DNA from: Coriobacteriia bacterium
Lineage (GTDB): Bacteria; Actinomycetota; Coriobacteriia; Anaerosomatales; Anaerosomataceae
Length of the DNA stretch: 64,000 nucleotides
NCBI GenBank assembly: GCA_030652115.1
Contig: JAUSBK010000007.1
Span: 310,001 to 374,000 of the forward strand
Direction of reading: 5' to 3'
Of this stretch, positions 23,967 to 33,752 are shown piece by piece (positions within the stretch are counted from its first letter, which is position 1; every line of letters starts with the position of its first letter). Both the position numbers and the translations under genes were made by a program. The notes under the pieces are model-generated. The model did not search any database. It was not told the DNA's origin and was given only the letters and a program-made list of their open reading frames with translations.

Positions 23967-26900
23967 ATGAGAAGGGGAAACAGGCCGCTGCGCTGGCGAA
24001 TGTTGATCGGTGTTGCGTGTCTGGCCCTGGCGGTGAGTGTGCCAGCAGTTGCTTCTGCGGCAGTACTCGCGCCGGTGTACCGGTTCTACAAAGTCTCGAA
24101 CGGTACGCACTTCTACACAGCAGGCGAGGCGGAGGCCAATAACATCATCGCTACGATGAGCTCCGTCTACAGATATGAGGGTGTCGCATACACACTAGAA
24201 GTCGACCACCCCCAGATGAACGCCCCGCTGTATCGATTCTTCAACAAGGCGAACGGTTCGCACTTCTACACTGCAGGTGAGGCGGAGAAGAACAGCGTTA
24301 TCGCCAACCTGTCCAACGTCTTCACGTACGAAGGCGTTGCGTACAATGTGAGTGCGAATGCGGCCGGCAACACGCCGGTCTATCGCTTCTTCAACAAGTC
24401 CAACGGCTCGCACTTCTACACCATCAGCGAGGCCGAAGCGAACGAGGTCATCGCCAAGTACGCCGCGACCTACACATTCGAAGGTCCCGCGTTCTACCTG
24501 GCGTACTCGACCGCTCCTCCGCCTCCGGGCGGCGACACCATCGCGCCGACGACGACGACCGATCTTGAGACCGTCTACCGCGGCCTTGCCACCATCCGGT
24601 TCTTCGCAATCGACAACGCCGGTGGCTCGGGTGTCGACCGTACGTTCTACAATCTTGATGGTATGGGAGCCGTTCAGGGAACGATCGCGTACGAGAACTC
24701 CCTGGGACTCCACACAATCGAGTACTGGTCGACTGACGACGCCGGGAACGAGGAGACGCACCACTTCGCCACGTTCACCGTCGTCTCGGTCCATGCGGAT
24801 CCGAACATCGCTGAGTGCACCGACTGCCATTCTGGCGATCTCATGAGCACTCACGATTCGATCGGCACTCCGGGCCCCGGTTGCGTCGCATGCCACGGCA
24901 CCGGCATCACGCCGAGTTTCGTGTGCTCCGACTGCCACGGCCCTGTGACCGATCCTACGACCCACCCGGATCTGGGCATGGTGCATGACGGCTCGGCCGA
25001 GACCTGCACCGACGCCGCATGTCACGCCAACGACGTTAGCGTGATCCACGACACGATGCTCTCCAATGGCGTTACGCCGCCGAGCTGTGCAGCGTGCCAC
25101 GCCGACGGTGTCACTCCGTCGACCGTTTGCGCGGACTGCCACGGTGGCTACACCACGTACCACCCGGCACCCGGCATGGCTCCGCACGCCGTCACCGGCT
25201 TCTGCTACACAGCGGGATGCCACGTGACCTACGGCGGCGCGCAGAAGAGCGACGCTGCGCTGCTTCACAACACCTGGGCCAAGAACCCCGGCTGTCCCGC
25301 ATGCCACGGCGAAGGCGTTACGCCGACCCTGACATGCTTCGATTCGGACTGCCACGGCGCAGGCAGCATGACGCTCGAGACCACCCACGCTTACGAGCAT
25401 GTGGATGCATCGGGCGTTAACAGCGGCGGCTGCACCGCGTGCCACGGCACCGACCTGCCGACCGCTCACGTTGCGGTGGGCTGCACGTGCCACACCAACA
25501 CGAACCTCAATGGTCTGATGGCTCCGCTGCTTGCGGCTGGAGAGGCCGAGTGCCTCGACTGCCACACCGATCCCATGGATCCGGCTGCGGCGCATCCGTA
25601 CCACGTTGGCGCGCACGACGCGATAGAGCCTGCGTTTGAGGTCAACAGCCCTGGCTGCGTGTCTTGCCACGGCAGCGACCTGATGGCGGTGCTTCCTGAC
25701 GGTAACCCGGTGACGGGTGTCAGCGAGCACAACTACTGCTCGTGCCACCAGTACGGCGAGGCCGAGACCCAGAGGTCTTGCGAAGAGTGCCACACGATGC
25801 CGATGGACGCGGCCGCTACTTATCCGTATCACGTCGGCGACCACGCCGCACTTGAGGCCGGCATCGCCGGTACCTTGAGCTCCGCGTGTGTCTCGTGCCA
25901 CGGCACCAATCTGCTGGACGTCGACGCCGGTAGCCTGCATCTTGCAGGCGAGCACGTGGGCTGCCTGTGCCACGCGTACGGCGAGGCTGTTCCCGGCAAC
26001 GATGAATGCGTCGACTGCCACGAAGGCTCGTACGCGCCTCACGGCTTCGTCAGTGGTTTCGGCCACACCGGCGAAGGCTGGGAGCCGGCATCCGGTCACA
26101 ACACGGAGGCCTTCGGCACGATCGGTGCCTTCGAGAAATTCGATGGCTCCGAGGGCATCACGCTGTACTGGGAGTCGCATATTGCCAGCTCCACGCTGCA
26201 GCCCTCGTGGGAAGTCGAAGCCGGCTTCCAGTGGGCAGAAGCGCCTGCGGGCTGGGCGGGTACGTCCCTTGAGGTCGGCGACACGGGTGTCGTCTCGACC
26301 GACTGGGAGTTCCCCGAGGTGAACGTGTTCTGGGATCCGGCAGACACTGCCGCTCCCGGGGACGCACTCTTCCTCGACGCGACATCTGTCGTGTCTTGCG
26401 AGGATTGCCACACCGGTCTTCTGGCCGCCGGTCCGCACGGTGCGGACGACAACTGGGGTCTCGACCCGGACTATCCGGCCGACTACTCCTACGGCGAGCT
26501 CACCAAGCAGGTCGAGCAGTTCCCGTCCGGCATGAAGCTTCGCTCCACGCTGACGACGGCGACGCAGACCTACGGTGACGGTATGACGCTCATCTGCTCC
26601 AAGTGCCACGACCTGGAGAACTACCAGTCTGGCACGACTGTGAACAACCCGTTGCCGATGTACTCCACCGGCGACGTGGCGTTCGACTATGCGGCCGATA
26701 CGTGGGATCCGGTGTACATCAATACCGGCAGCTCGCGTACGACCGGCTACTACGTCTGGACGCGGAACGACGGCACCCAGGTGGATCCTGCTACTCTCAC
26801 GATCACCGCTTCCAGCTGGTCGTCCACGGATCCCGAGGCGCAGCCCTGGATTCAGGGCAATGCCGGAACGTTCACTTCGGCCACCATCGGTTCCAGCAAC

Positions 26901-27344
26901 ACGGCTCACTCCAGCCATCACCAGGACACCAACGACGGCTCGGCGCAGTGCGTCGGCTGCCACATCGGTATCCCGCACGGTTGGAAGCGTCCGCGCTTGC
27001 TGGTGAACGGTGGCTGGAACGGAACGGCCAACTCCATCGGTGCGGGTGTTATCCCGGCTGACCCGGCTCCCTACAGGGACCCGGACATGCTCGGTACCAG
27101 CCGCAGCCAGGGTGGTGCGCTGCTCAATCCGCTGACCGGCTACAACGGCATGGGCATGCTGACCCTCAGTGCTGTGGACAACCACAACCTGTGGGCAGGT
27201 AGCGTCAGCGCCACTGATCCCGCAAAGCAGTACTACACAGGAGCGGCGTACTGGTCCGAGCCAAGCTGCCAGGCGTGTAACGATCACGCCGGCGAGGATG
27301 GCATCCGGATCATCGACACCGAGGCGACGACGTACGGCCCGTAG
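23967..27344 (+). CDS. Secreted multihaem c-type cytochrome with N-terminal HFYT (DUF5648-like) repeats
   Basis: 1125 aa. A signal peptide (residues 1-31, ending near ASAAVLA) is followed by three tandem repeats of about 46 residues (VYRFY.....HFYT....E...I.....Y.YEGVAY; about 34-178). About 21 haem-type motifs fill residues 280-1000: 15 CXXCH, three CX4CH (CTDAACH, CYTAGCH, CFDSDCH) and three CXCH (CTCH, CSCH, CLCH). A last motif reads CQACN instead of CQACH near the C-terminus. Residues about 490-700 are three diverged copies of a CXXCH-CXCH-CXXCH unit. There is no clear C-terminal anchor, so it is exported and possibly cell-surface. Downstream genes encode another cytochrome and the ResB/ResC maturation system. 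An extracellular or periplasmic electron conduit is the likely role, though the substrate is unknown. Confidence 0.88.
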   Translation: MRRGNRPLRWRMLIGVACLALAVSVPAVASAAVLAPVYRFYKVSNGTHFYTAGEAEANNIIATMSSVYRYEGVAYTLEVDHPQMNAPLYRFFNKANGSHFYTAGEAEKNSVIANLSNVFTYEGVAYNVSANAAGNTPVYRFFNKSNGSHFYTISEAEANEVIAKYAATYTFEGPAFYLAYSTAPPPPGGDTIAPTTTTDLETVYRGLATIRFFAIDNAGGSGVDRTFYNLDGMGAVQGTIAYENSLGLHTIEYWSTDDAGNEETHHFATFTVVSVHADPNIAECTDCHSGDLMSTHDSIGTPGPGCVACHGTGITPSFVCSDCHGPVTDPTTHPDLGMVHDGSAETCTDAACHANDVSVIHDTMLSNGVTPPSCAACHADGVTPSTVCADCHGGYTTYHPAPGMAPHAVTGFCYTAGCHVTYGGAQKSDAALLHNTWAKNPGCPACHGEGVTPTLTCFDSDCHGAGSMTLETTHAYEHVDASGVNSGGCTACHGTDLPTAHVAVGCTCHTNTNLNGLMAPLLAAGEAECLDCHTDPMDPAAAHPYHVGAHDAIEPAFEVNSPGCVSCHGSDLMAVLPDGNPVTGVSEHNYCSCHQYGEAETQRSCEECHTMPMDAAATYPYHVGDHAALEAGIAGTLSSACVSCHGTNLLDVDAGSLHLAGEHVGCLCHAYGEAVPGNDECVDCHEGSYAPHGFVSGFGHTGEGWEPASGHNTEAFGTIGAFEKFDGSEGITLYWESHIASSTLQPSWEVEAGFQWAEAPAGWAGTSLEVGDTGVVSTDWEFPEVNVFWDPADTAAPGDALFLDATSVVSCEDCHTGLLAAGPHGADDNWGLDPDYPADYSYGELTKQVEQFPSGMKLRSTLTTATQTYGDGMTLICSKCHDLENYQSGTTVNNPLPMYSTGDVAFDYAADTWDPVYINTGSSRTTGYYVWTRNDGTQVDPATLTITASSWSSTDPEAQPWIQGNAGTFTSATIGSSNTAHSSHHQDTNDGSAQCVGCHIGIPHGWKRPRLLVNGGWNGTANSIGAGVIPADPAPYRDPDMLGTSRSQGGALLNPLTGYNGMGMLTLSAVDNHNLWAGSVSATDPAKQYYTGAAYWSEPSCQACNDHAGEDGIRIIDTEATTYGP

Positions 27345-27386: not shown

Positions 27387-27441
27387 AAGGGCTCGCACTT
27401 CGAGCAGTTGGATGCTACGGATGCTGAGAGGATGGATACAT

Positions 27442-28326
27442 ATGGAAGCTAGCAAGGTTTCGCGGAGGCAGTTCCTGGGAGGAACTGCGGCCGTCGTCGG
27501 CACCGCGATGCTCCCGATGGTCGCGAACACCACGGCAGCGCTGGCAACTCCCGCGGGCAAGCTGAGTGATGCAGCAGCAGCACTCACGCCCTGGGTGCCG
27601 CTGAACGCTCAGGCTGCCGCACGGCATGGACTTGAGATCTACAGGGGCATGCACAATGCCTCCCTCGGACAGAGTGGTTGATGCGAGGGTACCTACTGGC
27701 CCGTGATTGGCCAGATCGCAGCGAACTATCCGAGCTCGCTCTTCAACCAGGTCCCGAGAGGACTGTTCAACTACGGCGCAGGCGGCGTTAACGCGTGGCG
27801 CAACATCTGCGGTGGCCCGAACGGTGGGTCGGCGCTGCTGGCCCAGCTGGGTGCCCCGACCTCGGTCAAGGATGAGTTCAACGCCTGGTACGAGCGGACG
27901 CTCTTCCCGAGCAACGCCGCGTTCGTTGACTGGAATGCTGGCGGCTGGACCGTCACTACTGCCCCGAGGACGGGTGCTCCGCAGGCGGAGCCGCAGTCGC
28001 TGCTGTGCCACGCCTCACACGGTCGCTGGCTCGATGCAGCGGGCGGCGAGGAGGGCGGCTGGGTAGCGTCGTTCCCCGGCGCTGACGCTGCTGCCAAGGT
28101 CGGCGCTGCAGGCGCAGACCGTTGTTCCAAGCTCGTGTATGACTGTGTCTACAAGCTCTGCGAACTCATCAACAACTGGAAGGCCGGCACCATGCCCACC
28201 GGCGCGCTCGATCCGAGCGTGGCCGCGTGCTTCGGGTGCCATGGTTCTGTGGATCCGCTGGATCCCGAGAACTGCGCGCCTGAGGTTGCCGGTAAGATGA
28301 GGTGCACGGATACCTGCCACAAGTAA
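27442..28326 (+). CDS. Tat-exported split-Soret-type cytochrome c, C_GCAxxG_C_C family, predicted selenoprotein
   Basis: One continuous frame of 294 residues if the in-frame TGA at 27679-27681 is read as selenocysteine (residue 80). The Tat signal is SRRQFLGGTAAVVGTA at residues 7-22. The TGA lies in SLGQSG-U-CEGTYWPVIGQIA, where the split-Soret/C_GCAxxG_C_C family has a conserved Cys. Downstream, family features continue unbroken: FNYGAGGVNAW, CGGPNGG (the GCAxxG-type site), LLCHASHGRW, CSKLVYDC, and two haem sites CFGCH and CTDTCH near the C-terminus. ATG 27442 has GAGAGGA 9 bases upstream; the start at 27412 has no such site. A conventional reading would split it into an 89-aa and a 207-aa fragment. 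Alternative: a nonsense-mutated pseudogene, but intact downstream motifs and the hairpin argue against it. Confidence 0.85.
27682..27720 (+). promoter_or_regulatory. Candidate bacterial SECIS element
   Basis: Directly after the TGA, TGCGA (27682-27686) pairs with TCGCA (27716-27720), and an upper stem TGGCC (27697-27701) pairs with GGCCA (27709-27713). The 7-base apical loop CGTGATT contains a GU. The loop starts 21 bases after the TGA, within the spacing known for bacterial SECIS elements. The structure is compatible with SelB binding and lies wholly inside coding sequence, as expected. Confidence 0.65.
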
Positions 28327-28420: not shown

Positions 28421-28999
28421 ATGAAGCGAGGCTGGATCTTGGCACTTGTGGTGGTTGCGATCATCGCATCGGGCGCGGTGGCTGCGACGTATCTGCGGGG
28501 CAACTACGCCGAGTCGCCGGTCCGATCGCTTGAGGCGCTCGCGCAGGCCACCCGGGATAAGGACTGGGCGGCAGTCGAGGCGTACTTCGATGCTGAGGCT
28601 GTGGCGACCCGTCTCGCCGAGTCCAAGATCGCAGCAGCGCCTGAGGCCGAGCTGGACTCGGGTACCTCCACGCACGATGACCCGCGGGGCGGAGCCGAGA
28701 CGGAAACACAGCTCATGGGCCGCATGACCGCCACCTACATCGAAAACTACCGCCAGACGATCCAGCGAAGCGTCGAAGCTGGCATCGAGTCCGGCGCGAC
28801 CGGCGTTGAAGGCGTGCTACTTGCTGGTAAGGCGAGTGATGTCGAGTATGTGAGCGACACCGAGGCGCGCGTGACCATTGAGGTGCCCGCAGATGAGGGT
28901 GGAGCGCTCGAGATCATCGCCACGATGGTGCGGGTTGACGACCACTGGCAGATAATCGCGCTGGAGACTGTCGACGCGCCTGTGACTCCGGCTGAGTAG
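28421..28999 (+). CDS. Membrane-anchored DUF2939-like protein of unknown function
   Basis: 192 aa from ATG 28421, with GAAGGGG upstream. A single N-terminal membrane segment or uncleaved signal (residues 5-24) is followed by SPVRSLEALAQATRDKDWAAVEAYFDAEAVATRL, resembling the DUF2939/lumazine-like fold that pairs small conserved Asp/Trp positions. The C-terminal half ends in a beta-rich, NTF2-like stretch (DDHWQIIALE). No haem motif is present. It sits between the cytochromes and the maturation genes, so an assembly or scaffold role outside the membrane is plausible but unproven. Confidence 0.6.
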   Translation: MKRGWILALVVVAIIASGAVAATYLRGNYAESPVRSLEALAQATRDKDWAAVEAYFDAEAVATRLAESKIAAAPEAELDSGTSTHDDPRGGAETETQLMGRMTATYIENYRQTIQRSVEAGIESGATGVEGVLLAGKASDVEYVSDTEARVTIEVPADEGGALEIIATMVRVDDHWQIIALETVDAPVTPAE

Positions 29000-29027
29000 A
29001 TCGTCACTGATGACAGGGATGGTGAGC

Positions 29028-29762
29028 ATGACGGAGAACCCGGAGAGCACCGAGGACACCGGGAGCGCCGAGGACGTCGAGATCGTGGAGGACGCAGACG
29101 CCACGGAGGTCGACGGAGTCGAGGACATCGCTCGGGACGAGGCACCGGATGAGGCACGCAAGTCGCGTCTGGGTCTCGGGCTGGCCGCAGCGTTCTTCGT
29201 AGCGGCGCTCGTACTCGCGGTGGCCGTGTTCTACGGGAGCCAGGATCCGGAGACTCCTGCCGCAGGCGGTGGAGAGACGACCGAACCCGTCGGCATGAGC
29301 ATGGCCGGCCCGGTGGTGGACGTGAACGTTTCCGAGGAGGCGCTCGCAAGCGAGCCTGAGGCGCCGGATCTCTCGACGCCGGAGGCAGCGGTACGCTCGT
29401 ACATCGACTGGACGTCATACGCATACCGAACCGCACAGTCGCAGGCGGCACTTCCCACGATGAGCACCTATCAGGAAGTTCACGTGGACTCGTACATCCA
29501 GTACAACATCCAGAAGAGCCGCCTGCTCGATCAGACGATCGTTGAACTCGAGTTCGGCGAGATCACGGTGGAGGGCGACACTGCCACCGTTCCGGTGAAG
29601 GAGGCGTGGAAGTACAGCTACGTCTCGATCGAGGAGGCCGGCGAGGTCATCGGCGGGCCGTACGAGATCGAGTACGATGCCGTCTACTCGCTCCTGAAGA
29701 CGGAAAGCGGCGATTGGGTGGTCGACTCTGTGGATGCGACCGCGCTGGGCGAGGTCCAGTGA
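29028..29762 (+). CDS. Membrane-anchored protein of unknown function
   Basis: 244 aa from ATG 29028; ATG 29010 is also in frame but lacks a site upstream. A very acidic cytoplasmic N-terminus (residues 1-42) precedes one membrane helix (about 47-68) and an exported domain. That domain contains TPEAAVRSYIDWTSYAYRTAQS and a later beta-rich part (KYSYVSIEEAGEVIGG), an NTF2-like pattern similar to the gene upstream. No cysteines for haem are seen. Its stop codon overlaps the GTG start of resB, so it is in the same operon and translationally coupled to cytochrome c maturation. Confidence 0.6.
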   Translation: MTENPESTEDTGSAEDVEIVEDADATEVDGVEDIARDEAPDEARKSRLGLGLAAAFFVAALVLAVAVFYGSQDPETPAAGGGETTEPVGMSMAGPVVDVNVSEEALASEPEAPDLSTPEAAVRSYIDWTSYAYRTAQSQAALPTMSTYQEVHVDSYIQYNIQKSRLLDQTIVELEFGEITVEGDTATVPVKEAWKYSYVSIEEAGEVIGGPYEIEYDAVYSLLKTESGDWVVDSVDATALGEVQ

Positions 29763-31192
29763 CCGTCACGCTCTCCCGAAGGGCATGGCGACTCCTCACG
29801 TCGCCGCGTCTGGCCACGGTGGTGATCGCGCTCGTCGGCGGCTGGGCAGTGCTCGCGTCGTTCGTGCCGCAGGGCGATGCGACCGCAGCGCCGGTGGCCG
29901 AATGGGCGGCTGCCTACCCCGGATTCGAAGCGCTCGCAGGCCCGCTCGGCCTGCATCGAGCCTTCACCGCCCCTGTCTTCCTCGTATTCGTAGCGCTGCT
30001 GGCCGTCCTCACGGCCGCGTGCGCCTGGCAGCGAACCCGGGTGGCGGCTGTCCGCTCGCGGTTCCTCCGGACCGCGGTTGCCGAGGCGGGAAGCCCCGAC
30101 GCGCGTGCCGACTTCGAGATCGTCTGCCGTCCCGGACTGAGTTCGGCCGAGGCTCTGGTGACGACTGCCGAGACACTCGAACGGCTCGGCATCCGCCCCA
30201 CCCGCGCCGAGAAGCACGTCACGGCGGTCTCGCCGCTGTGGTCGGTGTGGGGAAGCGCGGTCTTTCACTGGGCGCTGGTGACGCTCATGGTGGTGATCGC
30301 GCTCGGCAGTCTCGCGCGGTCCTCCGGCCAGATGGGGATCGCGGTGGGAGAGGCGAAGCCCGATGTAGCTGAGTCCTACGGCGTGCTCGACGAAGGCTCG
30401 CTTCACAGCTTCGGCGCGGGGCGCTCGATCCGGGTGGACGCGTTCGACGTGAACTACGAAACGGGCGGCGTCAAGCGTGGCGCCACGCCCACGGTCACGG
30501 TGCTCAATGCCGCGGGCGAGGTCGTGAAGACGCAGCTCGTCTACCCCAACAACACGCTCAAGACCGGCTCGCTGACCATCTATCCCTACGACTACGGGTT
30601 CTCGGCAACCGTGGCCATGCTCGACGACAGCGGTGCCGAGCTGCAGCGCACCACGCAACTCATCGACTTCGCGGGCTCCGCGGAGGGCGGCACGGCTCCC
30701 CTCGGGGCGCTCGTGCTCAAGGATGAGGCGGGTGCCGCACAGTACCGGATGCTCATCTCGGTCCCGCTCGACCAGTCCGAAGGTGGCGGCCTCGTTGGCA
30801 GGATGCCCGAGGACCCACGCGCGCGCGTGGTTCTCCTGAACGCCGCAGGCGAAGCGGTGATGGACGAGACCCTGCGCCCCGACGAGACGGTCGCGCTTCC
30901 GAGCGGCGGCACACTCCGGCTGCTCGGCGTGGATTACTACGCGCGTCTGCAGCTCGTGGACGACCCGTCGATACCCTTGCTGTATGCCGCGGCGATCGTG
31001 GCGATGATAGGCCTCGGCGCCGCCACGCTCGTCCGTCAGCTGGTGATCTCGGCGTGGGTGGCCGAGGACACGGGCGAGACAAAGCTTCGTGTGCGGATGC
31101 GTCTGTGGCGCGCGCTCACCACAAGCCGAAGTGAGATCGAAAGCGAGCTCAGGCGGGCGCTCGGTCCCGCCGAAGAGGGGAGTGCGTCGTGA
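29759..31192 (+). CDS. resB: Cytochrome c biogenesis protein ResB/Ccs1
   Basis: 477 aa from GTG 29759. Transmembrane helices lie near residues 19-39, 72-92 and 164-186, with a large exported domain (about 190-420) and a final helix near 425-445. LTSPRLATVVIALVGGWAVLASFVPQ is the typical ResB N-terminus. With ResC it forms the system II haem exporter and apocytochrome ligase. It overlaps both neighbours by 4 bases. Its presence right behind the cytochrome genes suggests dedicated maturation of their many haem sites. Confidence 0.88.
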   Translation: MTVTLSRRAWRLLTSPRLATVVIALVGGWAVLASFVPQGDATAAPVAEWAAAYPGFEALAGPLGLHRAFTAPVFLVFVALLAVLTAACAWQRTRVAAVRSRFLRTAVAEAGSPDARADFEIVCRPGLSSAEALVTTAETLERLGIRPTRAEKHVTAVSPLWSVWGSAVFHWALVTLMVVIALGSLARSSGQMGIAVGEAKPDVAESYGVLDEGSLHSFGAGRSIRVDAFDVNYETGGVKRGATPTVTVLNAAGEVVKTQLVYPNNTLKTGSLTIYPYDYGFSATVAMLDDSGAELQRTTQLIDFAGSAEGGTAPLGALVLKDEAGAAQYRMLISVPLDQSEGGGLVGRMPEDPRARVVLLNAAGEAVMDETLRPDETVALPSGGTLRLLGVDYYARLQLVDDPSIPLLYAAAIVAMIGLGAATLVRQLVISAWVAEDTGETKLRVRMRLWRALTTSRSEIESELRRALGPAEEGSAS

Positions 31193-32037: not shown

Positions 32038-33543
32038 CTACTCGGCGGACTTCCCGCTGCCCATCGACTTCATCGCGTCGGCCATCTTCTTCGGCATCTC
32101 GCCGGCTTTCGCCATGCCGATGCCGAGGAAGTCGAAGTGCTCGCCGTAGTCGCGCATCATGACTTTCATCGCGCTCAGCATGTAGCTGCGCTTGAAGCCT
32201 TCGGGCAGCGCCAGGATCTCGCTCATCTTGTTGGCGTAGAAGGTCATGTAGCACCTGCCGAGGGCGATCATCACGTCGTTCAGGGACATCGCGTACGGCT
32301 CGATGATCGGCGTGGAGATGTTGTACTGCGCGTAGTCCCACACGCGGATGCGATCGTGCACCTCGTCCCAGAGTGCCGTGTACGGCATGGGCGTGAGGAC
32401 GGGGAAGACGGCGATGTCAGGGTTGAGGCGTGCGGCCATCGCGGCGGTCTGCTTGATCGAGTCCCACGTCTCTTCGGGGAAGCCGATCATGAACGACGCT
32501 TCGATCATGATGTCGTGCTTCTTGAGCATCTCGACTGCCTGCTGGTTCTGGTCGATCGTCGTGCCCTTGTTGAGGCTGGCGAGCAGCTCGTCGGTGGACG
32601 TCTCGAGGCCGAGGTAGATGTGCATGATGCCGGCGTCGTGGTACTTCCACAAGATGTCCTCGTCGCGGATGATGTCCTCCACGCGGGTCTCGATCAGCAG
32701 GTAGACGCCGAGGTCCGCCTCGATGAGCAGGTCAAGGATCTTCTCCCAGCGCTCGCGGTCCCGCGTGGGGTAGGCGTCGATCATCGTGATGAACTCGACT
32801 TTGTACTCCTCCACGAGGTGGCGGATCTCCTCCAGTACCTTGTAGGGGTCACGCGCGCGCCACTCGCCGCGCCAAAACACGCGCTGGCTGCAGAACGAGC
32901 AGCCCATCATGCAACCCCGTGACGTGAGGATCGAGGCCATGCGTCCCCATGGATCGATGTTGTAGTGGTAGTCCTCCCAGTCGAGGAGGTGCCACGCAGG
33001 TGTGAGCGTGTCGAGGTCGACGATGTGCGGACGCTGGGTGGTGGTCACCACCTCGCCGTCGCGCTTGAAGGCGATGCCGCGCACATCGTCGAGCGGTGTG
33101 CCTTCGGCGAGTGCCGAGAGGAGTTCCACGAGCGTCTCCTCCATCTCGCCGCGGAGGATGACGTCAACAGGCGTGTCCTCCTCGGAGAACATCTCCTCGT
33201 ACATGAACGTGGGGTGCGGTCCGCCGATGAGCGTGGCGATCGCAGGGTCCACCTGCTTGGCCACCCGCAGCGCCTCGACGGCCGCCGGCACCGTGCAGGT
33301 GCTGATGGCGCCGGTCACGGGCAGGTAGTCGAGCGACATGACGACATCGGGCCTGAAGGTCTCGATCTGATGCCGGATCTCGTCGTAGGAGGTGTCCTTG
33401 TACATCGCGTCGTAGATCTTGGCTTCGTGTCCCGCACCCAGCGCAGCGCCTGCAAGGTAGACGAGGTGCACGGGCGGCCAGTTGCCGATCATCTGCTGGC
33501 CCCAGCACCTGTAGGGTGGTGTCACGAAGAGGATCTTGCTCAT
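32038..33543 (-). CDS. B12-binding domain radical SAM protein
   Basis: 501 aa from ATG 33543, where MSKILFVTPPYRCWGQQ begins a cobalamin-binding Rossmann domain (about 1-150, with IGGPHPTFM). The radical SAM motif is SRGCMMGCSFCSQ (CxxxCxxC), followed by GLETSTDELLASLNKG and FMIGFPEE. It resembles the BchE/hopanoid and oxygen-independent cyclase type of enzymes. The substrate cannot be assigned. The frame is open to 33702 but that part is in the dnaG promoter region and is not conserved-looking. It is transcribed opposite to its neighbours and may be single-gene. Confidence 0.8.
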   Translation of the reverse strand: MSKILFVTPPYRCWGQQMIGNWPPVHLVYLAGAALGAGHEAKIYDAMYKDTSYDEIRHQIETFRPDVVMSLDYLPVTGAISTCTVPAAVEALRVAKQVDPAIATLIGGPHPTFMYEEMFSEEDTPVDVILRGEMEETLVELLSALAEGTPLDDVRGIAFKRDGEVVTTTQRPHIVDLDTLTPAWHLLDWEDYHYNIDPWGRMASILTSRGCMMGCSFCSQRVFWRGEWRARDPYKVLEEIRHLVEEYKVEFITMIDAYPTRDRERWEKILDLLIEADLGVYLLIETRVEDIIRDEDILWKYHDAGIMHIYLGLETSTDELLASLNKGTTIDQNQQAVEMLKKHDIMIEASFMIGFPEETWDSIKQTAAMAARLNPDIAVFPVLTPMPYTALWDEVHDRIRVWDYAQYNISTPIIEPYAMSLNDVMIALGRCYMTFYANKMSEILALPEGFKRSYMLSAMKVMMRDYGEHFDFLGIGMAKAGEMPKKMADAMKSMGSGKSAE

Positions 33544-33683
33544 CGAGTACGGCCTCCGGTCGTCACTGTGTCGCGGGCAGTGTTCAGGGTAACACTCCGT
33601 TCGCGCAAGAACGGGAATGCACTTCGTGTGTATCGGCATCCGGTGGCGGGGTCCGGACACCCGCGATTGCAGGTAGACCCTGG

Positions 33684-33689
33684 TAGAAT
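33684..33689 (+). promoter_or_regulatory. Candidate -10 element upstream of dnaG
   Basis: TAGAAT in the 210-base divergent gap between the radical SAM gene and dnaG. A CGAAGGAGG ribosome-binding site stands before ATG 33753. No consensus -35 is seen. Confidence 0.4.
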
Positions 33690-33752
33690 TGCAGTCTTGC
33701 AAGTTCCGCGCCTGAATCCGCGCCCGAGACGTTTGTTCCCGAAGGAGGTGTC

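Follow-up and report, generated by a model that had tools for sequence, protein, structure and literature searches.

We analysed a window of DNA, meaning the whole 64-kb stretch from a Coriobacteriia bacterium, in which a forward-strand gene (27442..28326, +) encodes a putative Sec-containing split-Soret-like dihaem cytochrome c of 294 amino acids. The reading frame runs from an ATG at 27442 to a TAA at 28324-28326 and is interrupted once, by the TGA of codon 80 (27679..27681, +), which is followed by 214 codons and which we read as selenocysteine 80 (U80). The protein begins with a Tat signal (SRRQFLGG) that scored 21.6 bits in a profile search, just below the cut-off, and has haem sites at residues 263-267 (CFGCH, a CXXCH motif) and 288-293 (CTDTCH, a CX3CH motif). 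ORF calling splits the gene into two pieces, 27412-27681 and 27703-28326. The preliminary description of this DNA had proposed a single in-frame TGA at residue 80, a frame continuing for 214 codons beyond it with two haem sites, and a gene that standard annotation would report as two fragments, and the coordinates bear out all of this.

Open frames on either side of the TGA are little proof of readthrough, since in this GC-rich window 90 of the 1582 TGA codons in six frames are flanked on either side by 60 or more open codons. The reading is lifted above chance by homology upstream as well as downstream of the TGA and by the retention of the TGA in all seven copies described below. TGA also terminates 15 of the 46 called genes in the window, so this codon has not been reassigned in general.

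The gene sits in a cluster of cytochrome-related genes on the same strand. Its conserved upstream neighbour (23967..27344, +) encodes a multihaem cytochrome of 1125 amino acids with 15 CXXCH motifs (18 when CX2-4CH is counted) and an N-terminal DUF5648 domain. The DUF5648 region covers residues 36-178 of this 15-haem protein and an OmpL47-type stretch covers residues 208-272, a possible indication of surface attachment. Downstream lie two small conserved neighbours, a 192-aa protein with an N-terminal hydrophobic stretch and a weak DUF2939 match (28421..28999, +) and a 250-aa protein with one hydrophobic stretch and no family match (29010..29762, +). These are followed by ResB of cytochrome c maturation system II (29732..31192, +, start approximate; PF05140, E 6.8e-30) and a CcsA/ResC-type cytochrome c assembly protein, called CcsB in TIGR03144 (31189..32031, +; PF01578, E 3e-33; TIGR03144, E 7e-54). 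The order of multihaem cytochrome, Sec cytochrome, two small proteins, ResB and CcsA is largely conserved in six genomes: like the window, G077, G016, G093, G055 and G025 have a multihaem cytochrome with 12-16 CXXCH motifs, the Sec gene, the small proteins, ResB and mostly CcsA. This count leaves aside G049, whose contig ends about 1 kb away from the Sec gene. A gene for a B12-binding radical SAM protein (32038-33702, -) adjoins the cytochrome cluster in six genomes, and one is found in G095 on the same contig as a Cys form of the cytochrome. Cultured Anaerosomatales use H2 or formate to reduce Fe(III) or sulfur compounds, and they have 17-18 multihaem cytochromes (PMC9686372).

The split-Soret cytochrome c model NF047622 matched the window protein over nearly its full length (E 8.5e-19) with a score of 68 bits, which does not reach the curated cut-off of 400 bits for membership of the equivalog. 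The known split-Soret structure, PDB 1h21, was matched at E 2e-8 with the single sequence and at 7e-29 with a profile. An AlphaFold2 model built from an 11-sequence alignment had a mean pLDDT of 73.5, with low confidence in the signal and the haem tail, and this predicted structure aligned with 1h21 at Z 19.4 over 200 residues; nothing besides 1h21 rose above Z 2.5 in the structure comparison (VIA-align). The likeness to 1h21 in sequence and in modelled fold, along with the two C-terminal haem c motifs, places the protein in the wider split-Soret fold family. Haem motif spacing is unusual and varies among the relatives, the first being CX4CH in G077, G016, G093, G055 and G025 (homologues L021-L025) and the second CX3CH in the window, G077, G016 and G093.

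Searching 27 genomes of the same family, we found a copy with TGA in seven genomes, at the same codon each time: the window's own genome (G000), G077, G016, G025, G055, G093 and G049. All seven copies, the window's own included, are otherwise intact with no further internal stop, and the TGA copies are 39-68% identical to the window protein. G025 carries a second copy, in the Cys form, elsewhere in its genome. A search of the order (69 genomes) found full-length Cys copies in three more genomes, and a search of the phylum (396 genomes) found further loci, seven of which were aligned. Across the 18 aligned homologues, column 80 holds TGA seven times, Cys eleven times and nothing else, with Trp, Arg or Gly in none of them. 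The preliminary description had put the TGA at the family's conserved Cys and had suggested aligning U80 with homologues; on alignment, every homologue without the TGA has Cys there (11/11), and no Trp or Arg appears. Scanning the genome collection for Sec forms with two peptide patterns returned seven loci, all in Actinomycetota. In the tree, the most diverged Sec form, from G049 (L027/L076; 39% identity), falls beside the Cys form of G095 (L026/L077) with a weak support of 0.25, so that Sec may have arisen once or may have been replaced by Cys in G095.

Four non-haem positions, U80, C123, C189 and C228, are invariant and common to 1h21, and the three Cys are conserved in all aligned homologues as well as in 1h21, the title of which announces 'a novel iron centre'. 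The Cys of 1h21 that corresponds to U80 stands at position 44 of its chain sequence. Their conservation with 1h21, together with the Tat signal, makes these four positions candidate ligands of an iron centre. Cys81, next to U80, is not conserved: five of the seven Sec forms have it, G077 has Ser there and G055 has Gly, and most of the Cys homologues do not keep it. The earlier idea that Sec next to a Cys forms the redox centre is therefore not supported, and the invariant Cys123, Cys189 and Cys228 would be better partners for U80 than Cys81.

A putative SECIS hairpin starts directly after the TGA (27682..27720, +), with an outer stem UGCGA/UCGCA, an inner stem CUGGCC/GGCCAG and the loop CGUGAUU. 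The constraints on bacterial SECIS elements set out in PMC13188914 comprise a loop of 3-9 nt, a stem of 4-16 bp, a G in the first two loop positions, a spacing of 16-37 nt and an MFE of -7.5 or lower. The window hairpin fits them, with a 7-nt loop, a 6-bp stem, a loop G at position 2, a spacing of 20 nt and an MFE of -13.8; in G025 and G049 the top (closing C-G) pair of the inner stem is lost, which shifts the loop G to position 3. The stability of the hairpin is ordinary (z -0.63, with 53 of 200 shuffles folding as well), and counting pairs across the TGA copies revealed no covariation. In a simulation that recoded the same peptide with local codon usage, five of the seven genes gave at least five contiguous inner pairs in 75-81% of draws. 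The stem is largely a consequence of encoding the peptide YWPVIGQ with GC-rich codons, and its inner part does not form in the Cys homologues. Given the shuffles, the pair count and the recoding simulation, we do not accept the stability of the hairpin as separate proof of a SECIS; its fit to the published constraints and the loop codon still stand. The two-tier hairpin noted earlier at the base after the TGA, though present, is weaker evidence than it was taken to be.

Codon choice in the same region provides an RNA-level signal that is independent of the peptide. Synonymous conservation in a sliding window is raised after the TGA (0.76 vs 0.58 elsewhere), without being the gene's highest. 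Codon +9 after the TGA, whose third base falls in the predicted loop, shows the most extreme codon choice of all (rank 1 of 259 columns), reading ATT, ATT, CTT, ATT, ATT, ATA and GTT and thus ending in A or T in 7/7 copies; ATC accounts for about nine tenths of Ile codons near the locus in these genomes. The product of the codon-usage odds is 1e-7 if the genes are taken as independent, a nominal value that overstates the case because the seven genes share ancestry. Codon +13, which is GCA in six of the seven, ranks fourth. The loop codon is constrained.

The window's own assembly, 98% complete in 14 contigs, encodes a SelD that has its own Sec TGA in the N-terminal motif (SSKAGUAAKWGPGD), which is the usual Sec/Cys site of SelD. 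A SelD with a Sec TGA is likewise encoded in ten relatives, and a YedF-like protein is encoded beside selD in the own genome. Within this 98% complete assembly we found no SelA, no SelB above the cut-off and no true tRNA-Sec. Matches to the SelB model all fell below the cut-off and covered the GTPase part only, and a 47.6-bit match to the tRNA-Sec model was identified by ARAGORN as a tRNA-Ser; the check for a UCA tRNA-Cys in this genome covered the matches of the tRNA-Sec model. Five of the seven genomes with the TGA (G077, G016, G025, G055 and G093) have both SelA and a tRNA-Sec with a UCA anticodon; SelB was confirmed in G077 and G016, and neither SelA nor tRNA-Sec was found in G049.

Gene order around selD offers an explanation for what is missing. 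The contig that carries selD, C3, is collinear with G010 and G016 as far as selD (to yedF in G010); after selD come a ribbon-helix-helix/PIN pair, a large ORF and the contig end. We rejected the identification of this terminal ORF as a formate dehydrogenase, the large ORF having no Pfam match. In G077, which belongs to the same genus, selD is followed by the same pair and large ORFs, beyond which lie selA, selB and the UCA tRNA-Sec gene (selC). Because C3 ends inside the island that precedes selA-selB-selC in G077, and because the next conserved gene, a polyprenyl-synthetase-like gene that comes after selC in three relatives, is missing from the own assembly too, the own selA-selB-selC most likely fall in an assembly gap, as judged from collinearity and not from reads. 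G049 has the same island, and its contig ends inside it. This toxin-antitoxin-like pair with large Pfam-less ORFs lies between selD and selA in G077 (L093, L067), and the same island stands at contig ends in the own genome (L066, 16679-19950; C3 of G000, ~161.7-164.9 kb) and in G049 (L101). The preliminary description had named a search for the Sec machinery as a check and its complete absence as grounds for rejection; that search recovered selD and yedF while SelA, SelB and tRNA-Sec were not found in the own assembly, the rest most likely being lost to the gap.

Several other readings of the TGA have to be weighed against Sec insertion. If it were a real stop, in a decayed gene or through a sequencing error, the downstream frame would be a leftover; the two fragments obtained by ORF calling and the lack of selA, selB and selC in the own assembly would agree with this. 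The same TGA in seven genomes, however, makes a sequencing error very unlikely, both halves are conserved with no other stop, and beyond the TGA the frame retains the invariant Cys and the haem residues, so that we regard a real stop as extremely improbable. A two-product switch, in which a short exported peptide is made at low selenium and the cytochrome by readthrough, is possible in principle for any UGA-decoded gene, but the 79-residue piece would hold no haem or iron site, and we consider such a switch highly improbable. UGA80 might also be read as Cys by an opal-reading tRNA-Cys, or as another residue, at least in the genomes where no selA was found. Cys is indeed what all homologues without TGA have, and the own assembly and G049 yielded neither selA nor tRNA-Sec, but SelA and a UCA-anticodon tRNA-Sec occur in five genomes that carry this gene, the own SelD carries a Sec TGA and the missing genes coincide with contig ends, which leaves this decoding very unlikely.

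The best explanation, and a very probable one, is that UGA80 in the gene of a Tat-exported split-Soret-type cytochrome c is decoded as Sec, as predicted from comparative sequence analysis. The proposal that the protein is a selenoprotein is supported by the 7 TGA against 11 Cys at one column, the Sec-type SelD of the genome itself, the presence of both SelA and tRNA-Sec in five TGA genomes out of seven, and a hairpin that is compatible with a SECIS and has a constrained loop codon. SelB would carry out the insertion, directed to UGA80 by this hairpin. The protein would then fold in the cytoplasm around an iron centre, with U80, C123, C189 and C228 as candidate ligands, before Tat export; insertion of the cofactor ahead of export would explain a Tat signal on a c-type cytochrome. 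After export, the two haems c would be attached by the ResB and CcsA encoded in the cluster, and the gene order suggests that the protein would act as an electron carrier linking the membrane side to the 15-haem cytochrome, probably during anaerobic respiration.

What the Sec would do in this protein is a separate question. Sec is usually catalytic in characterised enzymes, and U80 could be inserted as a catalytic selenol, for example forming a selenenylsulfide with Cys81, instead of serving as a metal ligand; a UC pair occurs in five of the seven Sec forms. Against this, G077 and G055 have Ser and Gly in place of Cys81, and most Cys homologues do not conserve it, so a Sec-Cys81 pair cannot be essential; a selenol might act without Cys81. 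Overall we judge a catalytic selenol unlikely. A Sec-ligated iron (possibly iron-sulfur) centre, in which U80 would take the place of one of four thiolates and put an Fe-Se bond near two stacked haems, is somewhat more likely than that, yet falls short of even odds. Exchanging one Cys for Sec would be expected to alter the reactivity or the potential of the iron-thiolate centre.

We conclude that the locus appears to encode a new selenoprotein variant, with Sec possibly standing in for a ligand of the split-Soret iron centre. The word 'Soret' is absent, by keyword search, from the 2026 selenoprotein catalogue (PMC13188914), and the split-Soret literature consulted, from which most subscription journals are missing, does not mention a Sec form. 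If correct, this reading would add one more family to the list of selenoproteins, connect selenium with electron transfer by cytochromes in an uncultured anaerobic actinobacterial family and offer a test of the role of Sec at a structurally known iron site. The locus further illustrates that genes of this kind are split by ordinary gene calling and that a gap between contigs can make a Sec-using genome look Sec-less.

The closest known system is the split-Soret cytochrome c of Desulfovibrio desulfuricans ATCC 27774 (1h21), which shares with the window protein the fold, the four invariant non-haem Cys positions and the two C-terminal haem motifs. Unlike 1h21 and NF047622, the window protein has Sec for the first of the four Cys and a CX3CH motif at the second haem, and its gene is clustered with a 15-haem cytochrome and ResB/CcsA. 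A second comparison is with the C-GCAxxG-C-C proteins (PF09719 / TIGR01909), which NCBI calls a '(seleno)protein' and of which forms 1 and 2 are among the selenoproteins listed in PMC13188914. The arrangement of their Cys residues, C - CGxxxG - C - C, is similar to that of U80, C123, C189 and C228, whereas their models span about 120 positions without a haem tail. The Cys homologues of the window protein match them weakly (best E 0.0009; 17.5-18.9 bits vs a 27-bit cut-off), and the window protein itself gave no match to PF09719. Finally, multihaem ExtKL and octahaem tetrathionate-reductase-family selenoproteins are also catalogued in PMC13188914; set apart from the window protein by name and model, they provide a precedent for Sec in c-type cytochromes.
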